Shown piece by piece: positions 2,350 through 15,736 of a stretch of DNA of 64,000 bases. A program made the translations under genes and the position numbers. The DNA is from Pseudomonadota bacterium. Its GTDB lineage: Bacteria > Pseudomonadota > Gammaproteobacteria > Acidiferrobacterales > Acidiferrobacteraceae. Under the pieces are notes generated by a model. The model saw nothing but the letters and a program-made list of their open reading frames with translations. It was not told where the DNA came from and searched no databases. Numbering within the stretch: the stretch's first letter is position 1; each line of letters begins with the position of its first letter. The stretch is from the NCBI GenBank assembly GCA_021794595.1, contig JAJYQN010000133.1, positions 1 through 64,000 of the forward strand, in the 5' to 3' direction.

Positions 2350-3081
2350 TTAGCCCGGACGGGGCTCCGAGCGCCCCAGAATCTCGGTTTCGATCTGCTC
2401 GAGACTCGTATGCCGCACGTCCTTCCCCTTCACGAGATAAATGACGTACTCGCAGATATTGCGGGCATGATCGCCGATCCGTTCCAAGGCACGCATGGCC
2501 CACATGACGTTGAGCACCCGGGAGATGGTTCTCGGGTCCTCCATCATGAAGGTGATCATCTGGCGCATGAGGCCATCGTATTCTTTATCGACCTGGCGGT
2601 CTTCGCGCGCCACCCGGACCGCGGCCTCCATGTCGAGCCTGGCGAAGGCATCTAGCGCGTCGTGTACCATTTGGCGCACATGATTACCCAGAGACTGGAC
2701 CTCGACGTAGCCGTCCTTCGGACGCTCTTCGGCCGCCAAGCGCACCGCCATGCGGCCGATTTTCTCGGCCTCGTCGCCGATCCGCTCTAAGTCGGTTATG
2801 GTCTTGATCACCGCCATGACGAGCCGCAAATCGCTCGCCGTGGGTTGGCGGCGGGCAATAATCTGATTGCATTCCTCGTCTATGGTGACGTCCATCTTAT
2901 TGACTTTATAGTCGTTTTTTATCACCTCGTCGCCCAACACCGCATCGCCCTTTACCAGCGCGGCCATGGCATCGATGATCTGCTGCTCGACAAGCCCGCC
3001 CATATGCAAGACGCGGGTACGAATGTCCTCAAGCTCCGCATTGTAACGGCGCGAAATATGGGGATTCACATGTGGCTCCAT
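2350..3081 (-). CDS. phoU: Phosphate transport system regulatory protein PhoU
   Basis: PhoU links the Pst phosphate transporter to the PhoR kinase and holds the Pho regulon off when phosphate is plentiful. The 243-aa protein shows the two-fold helical repeat, each half with an ExxxD-type metal motif, for example ERIGDEAE and ERIGDHARN. The ATG at 3081 has a good AGGAGAC ribosome site; upstream in-frame sequence overlaps pstB and is not conserved-looking. It follows pstB by 16 nt, so the two are cotranscribed. Confidence 0.95.
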
Positions 3082-3097: not shown

Positions 3098-3874
3098 TCA
3101 GCCGTAGCGTCCCGTAATGTAGTCTTCCGTCTGCTTCGTCGCCGGATTGGTAAAGATCGTGTTCGTGTTATCGAACTCCACGATGCGCCCCAGGTACATA
3201 AAGGCAGTATAGTCAGAAACACGGGCCGCCTGTTGCATATTGTGGGTCACGATCGCGATCGTGTAATTCTGTTTGAGCTCATAAATAAGCTCCTCGATCT
3301 TCAGGGTCGATATCGGATCCAAAGCCGAGGCCGGCTCGTCCAAGAGCAGCACTTCGGGCTTCAAGGCGACGGCGCGCGCCATACAGAGGCGCTGCTGCTG
3401 TCCTCCAGATAGGCTCATGCCGCTTTGACCGAGCTTCCCACTCACCTCGTCCCAGAGCGCCACTTGGCGCAAAGCCTCTTCCACGCGATCGTCTAGCTCG
3501 GCCTTGGGCATGCGCTCATAGAGCCGAATACCAAAGGCCACGTTCTCGTAGATCGACATGGGAAAGGGGGTCGGCTTCTGGAAGACCATACCGATCCGAG
3601 ACCGCAGACGATACAGGTCCTCGCCCGGCAAAAGGACGTTGCGGTCATCAAGCCAGATCTCGCCCGTCGCCTTCTGATCCGGGTACAGCTCGTACATGCG
3701 ATTAAACGTGCGCAATAAGGTCGACTTACCGCATCCCGAGGGGCCGATAAAGGCCGTGACCAGATTGGTGGCGATCTCGAGATTGATGTCATGCAGAGCA
3801 GCTTCCTTGCCGTAATAAAAATGCAAGTTGCGTACCGTAATCTTGCTGCCGTTACTGTTCTGCGCCGATTCCAT
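3098..3874 (-). CDS. pstB: Phosphate ABC transporter ATP-binding protein
   Basis: Cytoplasmic ATPase of the high-affinity phosphate importer PstSCAB. Walker A is GPSGCGKST, the signature is LSGGQQQR, and Walker B is [13 protein letters not shown]; 258 aa is the normal length. Its partners pstS, pstC and pstA are not beside it. The next upstream gene on this strand is a porin more than 250 bp away, so the transporter genes must be elsewhere. No Pho box was seen immediately upstream. Confidence 0.96.
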
Positions 3875-4132
3875 TATCAGGACCCCTACGGTCTCCTTGG
3901 GAAAGAGAAGGGGTTCTCATGCGTTCAGATAAGCCCCGCGCAATTATGCCACAGCTCCCCTGAGGGGGCGATTCGTACACAGCAGGACCGTTCAAACGCC
4001 GCGCACGATGGCGACGATCGGAGTAGCCCCCGCGCCTAGCCTAGGGCCACCCGGGGGCGCCCCACCCTGCGACTGGTCGAAGACCCCGGACGACCATACA
4101 GCGCAGGCCGCCCGGGGAACCCATGCCCGTCC
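3875..4132. other. Intergenic region between pstB and the porin gene
   Basis: 258 bp with no convincing gene. It must hold the end of the porin transcript and any promoter for pstB-phoU. A G/C-rich imperfect palindrome (about 4050-4065) lacks a T-run, so I do not call a terminator, and I found no consensus Pho box. Confidence 0.4.
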
Positions 4133-10717: not shown

Positions 10718-11310
10718 AACCGCTATTTGCCGTAGTCGAGCAGGCGGTCAACCTTCCGTTTAGACAGGACCGCGACCTTCGCAAAGGCCTGGCGCCCTTG
10801 GCCGGCCGCGTCATGCGGCTGTCCTTCACGAGACCCTCGTGGGCCCTCGATCTCACGTTTAGCGAGGAGCGCATCGCAGTCGGTCCCTTGGGCGACCATT
10901 GGGATGTCGCCTTGACGGGAACCCTGGCCCAATATATCGCCCTCGTTCGCGCAAAGCCCGAACAGGCCCAGGAGGTCATGACCGGGGGCCTGCGCATAGA
11001 AGGCGACACGGAGTGTGCGTTCGCCATAAAACGACTCTTCGGGCAGGCGCGAATCGATTGGGAAGAGGCGTTGGCCCAGGCCATAGGAGACATCCCGGCA
11101 CACTTTCTTTTTGCCGGACTCGGTCGGGCAAGGGCGGCCGTGGGCTACGCGGCGGGCCAGTTTGCCGCCAACGCCGTGGAGTTCGCGCAAGAGGATGCGC
11201 AAGCACTTCCCCGGCCAGCGGATGTCGAGGCCTTTTTGCACGAAACCAATGTCTTACGGGATGACGTGGAGCGCCTCGCGCAGCGCATCCAACGTTTAAG
11301 GCCGCGCTGA
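10714..11310 (+). CDS. ubiJ: Ubiquinone biosynthesis accessory factor UbiJ (SCP2 domain)
   Basis: 198 aa, an SCP2-type lipid-binding domain in the N-terminal half (for example TLAQYIALVRAKPEQA and MTGGLRIEGDTECAFAIKRL) and a helical tail with VEAFLHETNVLRDDVERL. UbiJ is an assembly factor of the soluble Ubi complex that presents hydrophobic quinone intermediates. The position between ubiE and ubiB supports the call. Sequence conservation in the family is low outside the SCP2 core. Confidence 0.88.
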   Translation: MKPLFAVVEQAVNLPFRQDRDLRKGLAPLAGRVMRLSFTRPSWALDLTFSEERIAVGPLGDHWDVALTGTLAQYIALVRAKPEQAQEVMTGGLRIEGDTECAFAIKRLFGQARIDWEEALAQAIGDIPAHFLFAGLGRARAAVGYAAGQFAANAVEFAQEDAQALPRPADVEAFLHETNVLRDDVERLAQRIQRLRPR

Positions 11311-12977
11311 TGTTCGCCTTCAGACGCACGCGCCGTCTCCTGCATATCACCGCGGTTTTCATTTATCACGACCTAGACGAATTCGTCGTCAATCTGCACC
11401 TATTTCGGCTCTATCGCTACGCACTCCGCCTCCTGCCCTGGCGGTGGGGCAGGCGGACCTTGGCGCCGCGTGGCGAGCGCCTGCGCTTGGCGCTCGAAGA
11501 GCTAGGACCGATCTTTATCAAGTTCGGCCAAATGCTATCGACGCGGCCGGACCTTATTCCCGACGATATCCTGGTCGAATTGAGTAAGCTACAAGATCAG
11601 GTCCCGCCGTTCCCGGGGGACCAGGCCATCGCCCTTATCGAGGCCGCCTACGGATTCCCGCTTGCGCAAGCCTTCCGGGACTTCGATCCCGCCCCCATCG
11701 CCTCGGCGTCCGTGGCCCAGGTCCACTTCGGAGTACTCCACGATGGCACTGAGGTCGCGATCAAGGTGCTGCGTCCCGGCATCGAAAAGATACTGCAACG
11801 CGATCTGGCCTTACTCGAGACCCTGGCATCACTCGCTGTTCGCTATTGGCCGGACGCCAAACGGCTGCGGCCCCTGGAGGTCGTCGGGGAATATCACAAG
11901 ATCGTCTACGACGAGATGGATCTTGCGCACGAGGCCGCGAATGCGAGCCAGCTGCGCACCAATTTTGCGGGCTCAACGCTCTTGTACGTACCGCAAGTCT
12001 ATTGGGACTACACGCGCCGCACCGTCATGGTCATGGAAAGAATCAGCGGCGTACCCATATCCAATATCGAGGCGCTGGTAGCGAACGGCGTGGACTTGCG
12101 CCGGCTTGCCCACAATGGTGTCGAGATCTTTTTTACCCAAGCCTTCCGCGATGGCTTTTTTCATGCCGACATGCACCCCGGCAATATCTTCGTGTCTTTT
12201 ACCGGACAATACCGCGCGGTCGACTTCGGGATCATGGGCACACTTAGCGCCGAGGACAAGTTTTATCTTGCCCAGAACATCTTGGGCTTCCTGAACCGTG
12301 ACTACCGCAGCATAGCGGAGGCACATGTGCGCGCCGGATGGGTGCCAAGAACGACCCGCGTGGACGAACTCGAGGGGGCGATTCGGACGGTCTGCGAACC
12401 GATATTCGCAAAGCCTATCAAAGACATCTCGTTTGGCCGGCTGCTCCTCAACCTCTTTCAAACGGCGCGGCGGTTCCATATGGAGGTTCAGCCGCAGCTC
12501 GTGCTTCTGCAAAAAACGCTTTTTAATATCGAGGGCTTGGGCCGGCGCCTCTATCCGGATCTGGATCTCTGGATCACGGCCAAGCCATTCCTCGAGCGCT
12601 GGATGCGAGAGCAACTGGGGCCAGGCGCCGTATGGGCAGCCATCAAGAAGGAGTATCCGACATGGATCAAGATCTTGCCCGACATGCCGCGCTATTTGCA
12701 TGCGACCCTGCAACAGGCTAAGGATGGCGAGTTAACCGTGCGCGGGCGCTCGGACGAGATCGACCGCCTCGTCGTCGATATGCGCAAACGTCACCGGCGC
12801 ATCATGATCGGCTTACTCGGTGCCGCTTTAGCTGTCACGGGCCTTTTGATCTTTGGCCTGACGCACCCGATTTTCGTGTCCCAGTACCTTGGCGTGATCG
12901 AGATCGCCGTGGGTGTGCCAGGCGTGGCGCTGCTCGCGTGGTCGCTCTTTGATCTCGCCCGGACGCCGGCCGAATAA
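11310..12977 (+). CDS. ubiB: Atypical kinase/ATPase UbiB
   Basis: 555-aa UbiB/ABC1/ADCK atypical kinase-like ATPase needed for ubiquinone synthesis. Signature blocks are KFGQMLSTRPDL (KxGQ), the alanine-rich nucleotide loop ASASVAQVH, catalytic-type FHADMHPGN and the metal-binding VDFGIMG. Two C-terminal membrane helices occupy about residues 500-550. Its start overlaps the ubiJ stop by 1 nt. The operon ends here; the next DNA is the repeat-flanked island. Confidence 0.96.
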   Translation: MFAFRRTRRLLHITAVFIYHDLDEFVVNLHLFRLYRYALRLLPWRWGRRTLAPRGERLRLALEELGPIFIKFGQMLSTRPDLIPDDILVELSKLQDQVPPFPGDQAIALIEAAYGFPLAQAFRDFDPAPIASASVAQVHFGVLHDGTEVAIKVLRPGIEKILQRDLALLETLASLAVRYWPDAKRLRPLEVVGEYHKIVYDEMDLAHEAANASQLRTNFAGSTLLYVPQVYWDYTRRTVMVMERISGVPISNIEALVANGVDLRRLAHNGVEIFFTQAFRDGFFHADMHPGNIFVSFTGQYRAVDFGIMGTLSAEDKFYLAQNILGFLNRDYRSIAEAHVRAGWVPRTTRVDELEGAIRTVCEPIFAKPIKDISFGRLLLNLFQTARRFHMEVQPQLVLLQKTLFNIEGLGRRLYPDLDLWITAKPFLERWMREQLGPGAVWAAIKKEYPTWIKILPDMPRYLHATLQQAKDGELTVRGRSDEIDRLVVDMRKRHRRIMIGLLGAALAVTGLLIFGLTHPIFVSQYLGVIEIAVGVPGVALLAWSLFDLARTPAE

Positions 12978-13070
12978 AGGCGTGTACGGGTACGGCCAGA
13001 ATTTGGACTTTCCGCACTGCGGGACTACGTCATTGGCCAGTCGGCTTCCTCCGCCCCCACTAAAGAAGGT
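12978..13070. other. Spacer between ubiB and the left inverted repeat
   Basis: 93 bp after the ubiB stop. Nothing recognisable, and no strong terminator hairpin with a T-run was seen. Confidence 0.35.
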
Positions 13071-13312
13071 CTTCAGGCTTTCGTGGGAGCAAGAGGGTGT
13101 GGGCTTCTATCAGGCGCCTCCGCGGGCCAGTATTCCACCCCACCGTGTGACACGGAACGGGTCCAAAGCCCTTGGGATTACTGGCGCCGCAGCGAGTGAC
13201 GACAGTGGCGATATAAGTTGCCTCGGGCGATACCCAGTTTAAGCGAGTACCGGTACGCGTGGTGGCCGCCAGGCTCCTTTGGACGCAAAGCGATACCGGA
13301 TCAGCGAAGACG
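13071..13312 (+). repeat. Left arm of a perfect 242-bp inverted repeat
   Basis: Every base of 13071-13312 matches the reverse complement of 14998-15239; I aligned both arms completely and the match stops exactly at these borders. Read on the minus strand, one frame through it gives an ORF tail containing VVTRCGA and, near the outer end, GAAGCCCACACCCTCTTG. This resembles the 3' part of IS200/IS605-type tnpB elements, an identification I hold loosely. The arm lies between ubiB and the toxin-antitoxin genes. Confidence 0.93.
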
Positions 13313-13708
13313 GTCTTTGACCGCGGTTTTCTGGGCAACCCGCTCACGACACCCGTCTATCATAGCTTGCCCAAAGACCCAGAGACGCCCTCTGCCAGGG
13401 TTACTCGCCACCCCGACACGTCGCACCGCCGCGCCGCCACAGAGGGGATGAAACGCCAGATCCCGCTCCTCATAGGCAAGGCTTGTGGCTAAAGGGGATG
13501 GCGTCAATGTTCTCTGAAGCCAATACATCCCGCTGACGTTGACCGGACTAGCGGGCATGACGATGGCCACGGGGCTTTTTGTCATCGCCCCAGTTGAGCG
13601 ACGCTGTCGTCGTCAGGTGCGCTACCCAAATGGGGTGATCGATATGCGCGTACGCGCCCAGCCAAATGAAAATGCGATACGGGAAGCAACCCTTACAGCA
13701 GAGCGTAC
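13313..13708. other. Non-coding inner flank of the island
   Basis: About 400 bp between the left repeat arm and the antitoxin promoter. ORFs cross it on both strands but none has a ribosome site, a recognisable domain or neighbour support. It may be the residue of a mobile element interior. Confidence 0.35.
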
Positions 13709-13745
13709 ACACGAACTTGTGCTACACACGAATATGTGTTATAAA
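13709..13745 (+). promoter_or_regulatory. Promoter with two tandem operator-like sites for the toxin-antitoxin pair
   Basis: -35 TTGTGC (13717-13722), a 17-bp spacer and -10 TATAAA (13740-13745) make a good sigma-70 promoter. Two near-identical palindromic sites, ACACGAACTTGTG (13709-13721) and ACACGAATATGTG (13726-13738), are 17 bp apart and overlap it. Such spaced repeats are what a ribbon-helix-helix antitoxin would bind for autorepression. Confidence 0.65.
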
Positions 13746-13778
13746 TATTCCTCCTGGAATTCCCATAAGGCCGGTCCT

Positions 13779-14117
13779 ATGTCGAACATAACCTTTGCCA
13801 TCGATGATGATTTGCTGCGGAAATCGAAGGTTGCCGCGGCGCAGATGGATACATCACTTAATGCCATCGTGCGGACATTGCTGGTTGGATTTGTGGAGTC
13901 TGTTGGAGGAAAAGTCCAGCAACCGGAGAATTACCGAAAGCTCTTGGATTTTTCGCTTGGAAAGGTGACCTACCGGTCCCTGATGAAGGATCTCAATATC
14001 GATAGCGATGAATCGCTTTTTCTCATGATGTGCGGCGCAGGCCTTCCCATGCCCCGCTTGGCAGAGGAAGAGACCCAACAAATGGTTGATCTCATCGGGA
14101 AGGTCATAAGTGCGTGA
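13779..14117 (+). CDS. Ribbon-helix-helix-like antitoxin
   Basis: 112 aa. Residues 3-38 (NITFAIDDDLLRKSKVAAA, then LNAIVRTLL) match the strand-helix-helix pattern of Arc/CopG-type regulators, with the remainder presumably binding the toxin. The ATG at 13779 follows an AAGG ribosome site; an in-frame start at 13539 would add sequence across the promoter and is rejected. It overlaps the PIN-domain gene by 8 nt, the usual antitoxin-first order. The region is AT-richer than its neighbours, which suggests transfer. The exact family (VapB-like or other) is not settled. Confidence 0.7.
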   Translation: MSNITFAIDDDLLRKSKVAAAQMDTSLNAIVRTLLVGFVESVGGKVQQPENYRKLLDFSLGKVTYRSLMKDLNIDSDESLFLMMCGAGLPMPRLAEEETQQMVDLIGKVISA

Positions 14118-14670
14118 GAGTGTCTGCGAACTGGTTGTTCCAGACGCCGGCCCGCTTATTACATTAGCTTACGCGGACCGGCTTGATCTGTTGCTGGGGC
14201 TGGGCGTCGAAGTTGTCGTCGTTGATATGGCGAAGGTAGAGTTAACTCGCCATCCCACGCCAACGAGCGAAAAAATTCTCGCTTTTCTTGCGGGCAATAA
14301 CGTAAGGGTTATAGAGACAGAAATTGGCAAAGAAGCGATGACGCAAGGATCGGCGTTCAAAAAACGCCACGCCGGGGAGCGAGCGATCCAAGACGCTTTA
14401 TTTGAATTTTCCGATGAATCAGAACGGCAAGGGAAACCGCGGTACGCATTGTTGTTGTTCGAAGAACACAAAATCTCTGGTGCGAGTTTCGTTCTTCCAG
14501 ATAACGTATACGTTATTTCCACAATGGCATTTCTACGTAAGCTAGAGGAAATGTGTATTATAGAATCTGCTATGGATGTTCGCGATGCAGCAGTGAAGGC
14601 TGGGCGCGAGTTCTCGCAACTCGATGTAAGTCATCCGCCTAGAGGCAATCCCGCGACCAAACCATTGTAG
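14110..14670 (+). CDS. PIN-domain protein, probable VapC-type toxin ribonuclease
   Basis: 186 aa. The N-terminus VVPDAGPLITLAYADRLDLL is the first strand of a PIN domain with acidic D12; further candidate metal ligands are E44 (AKVELT), E90 and D95 (GERAIQDAL). It looks closest to the predicted nucleic-acid-binding PIN group around DUF3368. The start is GTG at 14110, inside the antitoxin's last codons. VapC toxins cleave tRNA or rRNA, but the target here is unknown. The final acidic position reads FEEHK rather than the usual DD pair, so activity needs checking. Confidence 0.7.
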   Translation: MRESVCELVVPDAGPLITLAYADRLDLLLGLGVEVVVVDMAKVELTRHPTPTSEKILAFLAGNNVRVIETEIGKEAMTQGSAFKKRHAGERAIQDALFEFSDESERQGKPRYALLLFEEHKISGASFVLPDNVYVISTMAFLRKLEEMCIIESAMDVRDAAVKAGREFSQLDVSHPPRGNPATKPL

Positions 14671-14997
14671 TCGATAGCATTAGAGTAAAACGCCCTCAGA
14701 CGCGGCTGCGCGCGCGGGAACCGCAGGGCAACAATTGTCCTAGTCGCAGCGCTGTCCTCCTGTCCACGAGTAGGTACGAGCGTCTTATCAGGTTTTTGCG
14801 CAGGCCCTCCCCTACTTGGCCGAGAGGCCAAAGTCCTCTGGATCCGGTCTTGGCAAGCGACCAGCCAGTTCATAGCTTATGGTGCGTAACAAGCCATTCT
14901 TTAAAGCTCTTCCGGGGTTTTTGTGGGTAGTGCATAAAAGCCTCATGACGGACACCCCGCGGGCTCGAGGCTAAGCTTCCCACAAGGGAGGAGAGGG
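14671..14997. other. Non-coding stretch between PIN gene and right repeat arm
   Basis: 327 bp without a supportable gene. The minus-strand ORF here has no ribosome site or family resemblance. No promoter or terminator was identified. Confidence 0.35.
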
Positions 14998-15239
14998 CGT
15001 CTTCGCTGATCCGGTATCGCTTTGCGTCCAAAGGAGCCTGGCGGCCACCACGCGTACCGGTACTCGCTTAAACTGGGTATCGCCCGAGGCAACTTATATC
15101 GCCACTGTCGTCACTCGCTGCGGCGCCAGTAATCCCAAGGGCTTTGGACCCGTTCCGTGTCACACGGTGGGGTGGAATACTGGCCCGCGGAGGCGCCTGA
15201 TAGAAGCCCACACCCTCTTGCTCCCACGAAAGCCTGAAG
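14998..15239 (-). repeat. Right arm of the perfect 242-bp inverted repeat
   Basis: Exact reverse complement of 13071-13312. The arm ends 20 bp before the stop codon of the convergent-side GNAT gene, so the element sits tightly between ubiB and that gene. No target-site duplication was evident directly outside the two arms. Confidence 0.93.
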
Positions 15240-15259: not shown

Positions 15260-15736
15260 TCAGCCCCAGTCCAGACGTTTGGTAAAGTTGACGACGCTCG
15301 GCCGCTCTTCGTAGCCTAAGGAGGGATAGAAACCGCGCCGGTACGACTCCCGTTCGCGGCTATTCAAGACACTGATGCGAAAGCACTTGCGGGCCGCGGC
15401 TTCGTTTTCTATCGCCGCCATCAAGGCCTTGCCCACGCCCCGGTTCCGGGCCGAGCCGATCACAAAAACCTCGGTAATCGCGAGCTCTCTTCCGGCAAAC
15501 AAGAGATGGGTGACCACCTCTCCGTGCACATAACCTACAACCTTGCGATCGTGTTCGGCCACCAAGAGGAGCGCGCTCTCTTCGGTGATCAAGGCCGCGA
15601 GGCGTTGCGCCAGCGTGCTGCCGTCGGCCTTAAACGCCGGGTTCCAACCAAGCTCCCTATGTAATTGCATAACGCCCGGGAGGTCCGTGGGCTGGAGCGG
15701 CCGAATTTTGACAGGCAAAACACTCTGACTCGCCAT
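15260..15736 (-). CDS. GNAT-family N-acetyltransferase
   Basis: 158 aa. The acetyl-CoA loop appears as SARNRGVGKALMAAIENEA (R/Q-x-x-G-x-G/A), preceded by the central strands LLVAEHDRKVVGYVHG and ITEVFVIG, and followed by ERESYRRGFYPSLGY, the usual terminal motif. The substrate cannot be told from sequence. It starts 4 nt after the ctpA stop, so it may be the last gene of the gpmI-envC-ctpA run. Confidence 0.85.
   Translation of the reverse strand: MASQSVLPVKIRPLQPTDLPGVMQLHRELGWNPAFKADGSTLAQRLAALITEESALLLVAEHDRKVVGYVHGEVVTHLLFAGRELAITEVFVIGSARNRGVGKALMAAIENEAAARKCFRISVLNSRERESYRRGFYPSLGYEERPSVVNFTKRLDWG

Follow-up and report, generated by a model that had tools for sequence, protein, structure and literature searches.

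The island that lies between ubiB and a GNAT gene in the window (the whole stretch of 64,000 nucleotides analysed here) is probably best explained as two decayed copies of an ISL3-family insertion sequence (IS) together with an independent toxin-antitoxin (TA) insert; recombination would have homogenised the copies and probably turned the interior over once. The island is a case of ordinary IS decay plus TA insertion, and on present evidence not a mobile unit, which shows that dead IS copies can produce the look of a mobile island. According to this explanation, the spacer between ubiB and GNAT would hold decayed and internally deleted ISL3-family copies in head-out arrangement, which enclose an operon of ribbon-helix-helix (RHH)/PIN-like type.

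The two arms, located by a repeat search at 13071-13312 and 14998-15239, form an inverted repeat of 242 nt that is 100% complementary, with 0 mismatches, a match far above chance expectation. They are separated by 1685 nt and flanked by ubiB (11310-12977, + strand) and the GNAT gene (15260-15736, - strand). The GC content of the interior is 0.50-0.54, compared with ~0.60 outside the arms. Both the perfect repeat and the AT-richer interior between these two neighbours had been described from the sequence beforehand, and the coordinates, the identity, the composition and the neighbours were all reproduced. The interior holds two overlapping open reading frames (ORFs), and an Rfam search of the island region gave no match.

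A transposon origin of the arms, implied by the mobile unit of the preliminary description, was upheld, since both arms are left ends of an ISL3-family IS. Of the arm sequence, 202 bp correspond to the left end of ISL3 elements present in the same genome and in the genus, with 75-79% identity, and the remaining stretch of about 40 bp derives from a region close to the 3' end of the transposase gene. The arm has matches of 76-79% at three other places in the same genome, of which two lie at contig ends. Contig C6 of this genome (G000) carries a full-length element with the left end GGGTCTTCAGG and the right end, inverted, GGCTCCTCTGG; it encodes an ISL3-type zinc ribbon and is the single complete ISL3 copy assembled in this genome, although its transposase frame is broken. 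A better-preserved parent copy in the genome G009 encodes a transposase with DDE_Tnp_ISL3 (PF01610, E=5e-73) and Zn_ribbon_ISL3 domains, and with a helix-turn-helix (HTH) match just under the cutoff. The terminal inverted repeats IRL and IRR (beginning with GGGTCTTCAGG and GGCTCTTCCGG, respectively) are present in the parent element and in the relics. ISL3 elements have a target duplication of 8 bp, a perfect example of which (TTAGGGCA) borders the ISL3 copy of G001.

In the window, the left copy begins with the IS left end (13068-13312, + strand), which includes the IRL GGTCTTCAGG and of which 13071-13312 constitute the exact repeat, and it continues directly into a 3'-end fragment of the transposase gene (13313-13491, + strand; 80% identity to the C6 copy over 13293-13491). 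The right copy is composed of the inverted left end of the relic (14998-15239, - strand), from which the terminal GGGT is absent and which meets the GNAT flank at CTT, and of an ISL3 right end formed by the IRR and adjoining sequence (14906-14993, - strand; 77% identity to the C6 copy, and 83% to that on contig C103 and others). Both copies lack ~830 bp of the transposase gene in the alignment. The earlier statement that no transposase lies inside the island is therefore accurate for an intact gene, which is absent, but not for remnants, as the 3' fragment (13293-13491) and the ISL3 right end (14906-14993) are present. Judged by their sequence, the window copies are relics or derivatives of an ISL3-family IS, not autonomous elements. 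They resemble ISL3-family IS and their internally deleted, MITE-like derivatives in the terminal repeats, the transposase domains of the parent and the 8-bp target duplication of the genus copy, whereas they differ from the family in being internally deleted and in that both kinds of end occur only in the right copy. Unlike other ISL3 derivatives, the deleted form of the window was found at no other site.

The age of the relic can be approached through G003, the closest sequenced relative, which is collinear with the window and 93% identical to it on both sides of the spacer. The ubiB-GNAT spacer of G003 contains one ISL3 relic, which has the orientation of the right arm, and is free of the TA. 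In the alignment, the left, right and G003 relics carry the identical ~830-bp deletion, which was not found in the other ISL3 copies searched, so that the three relics descend from one deleted element. Because the deletion is common to the window copies and to the relic at the same site in G003, the comparison shows that, as dated from these alignments, one internally deleted ISL3 occupied the ubiB-GNAT site before the split of the two species. The divergence of the relic between the window and G003 (20.9%) is close to that of ubiB fourfold sites (24.0%) and of the ubiB flank (21.5%), and the relic thus appears to have evolved without constraint between the species; the divergence at GNAT fourfold sites is lower (12%, from only 83 sites). 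In G003, about 76 bp beside GNAT, just outside the IRL of the relic (L019, 5609-5694), are without an equivalent in the window.

The lineage of the window has a second copy in inverted orientation, and this copy may have originated by local inverted duplication or by a short hop of the deleted element. Between the arms, 0 differences were counted over 242 positions (upper 95% bound 1.2%), against an interspecies divergence of the relic of about 21%, which implies that they last shared a state within roughly the last 5-6% of the time since the split. The identical tract spans all the sequence common to both copies and stops exactly where the homology ends, which fits recent duplication and gene conversion alike. 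The best account of these comparisons is accordant with what had been proposed for the perfect arms, namely that they were recently duplicated or homogenised by gene conversion, and the data fit both. In the latter case, homologous recombination between the inverted copies would have preserved or created the identity of the 242 bp that they share. Neutral drift between species together with an identical local pair, as found here, is what would be expected from gene conversion of IS copies in inverted orientation, and the locus represents a datable case of this combination.

Recombination between the copies may also have acted on the interior. The outer flank of the left arm reads CTAAAGAA (13060-13067, + strand), and the sequence outside the IRR, which at present adjoins the right arm, is TTAAAGAA in the outward direction; both octamers match at 7/8 positions and possibly constitute a separated target-site duplication, a match that presumes the loss of one base at the left end and has a chance of 0.004-0.011 (0.4-1.1%), depending on composition. 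The flank bordering the end of the right arm itself has no match to CTAAAGAA or TTAAAGAA. From the 7/8 match, the left arm seems to be the proper partner of the IRR. When the interior is flipped virtually, the arm and the IRR come together as a short but complete element whose target duplication is nearly perfect, and the same flip restores the order GNAT-arm-transposase fragment seen in G003. This suggests that the arms recombined with each other and thereby inverted the interior of 1.7 kb, probably once, although a wrong orientation chosen by the assembler would give the same picture. The broader idea that short-read assembly across the repeat produced the second arm, or the orientation of the interior, draws on the nature of the assembly, a draft of 153 contigs of which several break within ISL3 copies, and the interior orientation alone could indeed be wrong. 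Nevertheless, the two arms have separate outer flanks, both homologous to the G003 flanks, and separate inner ISL3 continuations, and an artefact of this kind is considered very unlikely.

The perfection of the arms, the match between the IRR and left-flank target sites and the collinearity with G003, which together suggest a flipped interior, are also compatible with a recombinational switch, in which the TA segment of 1.7 kb would be turned over repeatedly by RecA-type recombination and selection would preserve the symmetry. However, the operon's own promoter region and its conserved operators lie inside the inverted segment, its orientation need not alter TA expression, and a single inversion event fits neutral recombination, which makes such a switch improbable. 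There is likewise little reason to expect that the arms repeatedly invert the TA operon in the population, with their symmetry held by selection or by ongoing gene conversion. A possible switch is nonetheless what gives the locus its modest interest and, if inversion were ongoing, the island would serve as a simple, naturally occurring assay of recombination between inverted repeats.

The preferred reading of decayed IS copies around a separately acquired operon leaves little room for the non-autonomous mobile unit with TA cargo put forward in the preliminary description. Such a unit would be a composite transposon, in which an ISL3 transposase acting in trans would move the TA by means of two miniature ISL3 ends. 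TIME-COMP elements are Tn3-derived miniature elements that form composite transposons, and miniature elements are able to mobilise the DNA between them (PMC4133298). The island is like them in that its passenger DNA is enclosed by two short ends, neither of them autonomous, its outer ends are both ISL3 left ends, and ISL3 copies exist in the genome; it differs from TIME-COMP in being related to ISL3 instead of Tn3, in lacking a target duplication and in showing no sign of moving as a unit. Specifically, CTAAAGAA on the left has no matching octamer on the right, and the right outer end is devoid of the 3-4 terminal bases (GGGT). No second arm pair was found elsewhere in the same genome, in the genus or in 57 genomes of the order, and the only complete ISL3 copy assembled (C6) has a broken transposase frame. 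In addition, an ISL3 relic was at the same site before the species split, the G003 spacer is free of TA but not of ISL3, and the TA is found in G009 without ISL3. A composite transposon is consequently regarded as a highly doubtful origin of the island.

The TA operon itself is represented by an antitoxin gene (112 aa; 13779-14117, + strand) and by an overlapping gene for a candidate toxin (186 aa; 14110-14670, + strand). The RHH/PIN pair had been assigned in advance and this was confirmed in part: the overlapping TA ORFs are present, while the RHH of the antitoxin N-terminus is a sub-threshold Pfam hint (FitA-like, E=0.033, under the cutoff) and the PIN assignment comes from fold comparison. 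The structure model of the 186-aa protein (pLDDT 79, with low confidence in the C-terminal 17 residues) is PIN-like, and its best structural matches are Rrp44 PIN domains (Z 9-10), with R. felis VapC2 at Z 7.1; Foldseek alone returned nothing below 0.001. In sequence searches, this protein had no Pfam or NCBIfam family match, no relevant solved structure and no relative in viral contigs. The TA gave only weak matches in NCBIfam, PADLOC and PHROGs, and the plasmid collection, queried with the arm and the toxin, gave no match. The model therewith places the 186-aa protein in the PIN fold, as a candidate toxin. The motif CACAN6TGTG occurs at only two sites in the window, as tandem palindromes 17 bp apart located 5' of the antitoxin (13708-13738, + strand), and both pattern and spacing are kept in G009, which makes these twin palindromes likely autoregulatory operators. 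By analogy with its family, the TA would be an ordinary autoregulated module, whose antitoxin would occupy both operators and inhibit an RNase toxin. It resembles type II systems (VapBC/FitAB) in its overlapping genes, RHH-like antitoxin, PIN-like fold and twin palindromic operators, while it differs from them in its candidate toxin, which has 186 aa and matches none of the Pfam/NCBIfam families.

The TA probably arrived separately. Its ortholog pair in G009 shows 84% DNA identity, limited to 13706-14676, and no ISL3 sequence adjoins it; more distant toxins of the genus adjoin other types of antitoxin, Phd-like or RHH. From these two observations, the TA would spread independently of the ISL3 pieces. 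The spacers on either side of it, of 214 bp (13492-13705) and 229 bp (14677-14905), have no source found and no detectable ISL3 debris, the former having no relative in the same genome or genus, and no direct or inverted repeats of at least 8 bases bounding the TA were found within them.

Other loci of the genus show related arrangements. In G013 (L056, about 2512-3021), a relative of the toxin with 59% identity is broken by an in-frame TAG, and a separate PIN/Phd-like pair adjoins it (3364-4046). On contig C149 of G009 (L057, about 1370-2030), a different TA, BrnT/BrnA (Pfam E=2e-22 and 3e-12, respectively), has a GNAT ortholog beside it and a ubiB-like end nearby, where the ubiB fragment is only 66% identical; TA modules may have entered the ubiB-GNAT spacer on two occasions. 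In six other species this spacer measures about 1 kb and contains an ORF without Pfam match that resembles a secreted or outer-membrane protein. Its length is variable in the genus, being about 20-90 bp in G011 and G006.
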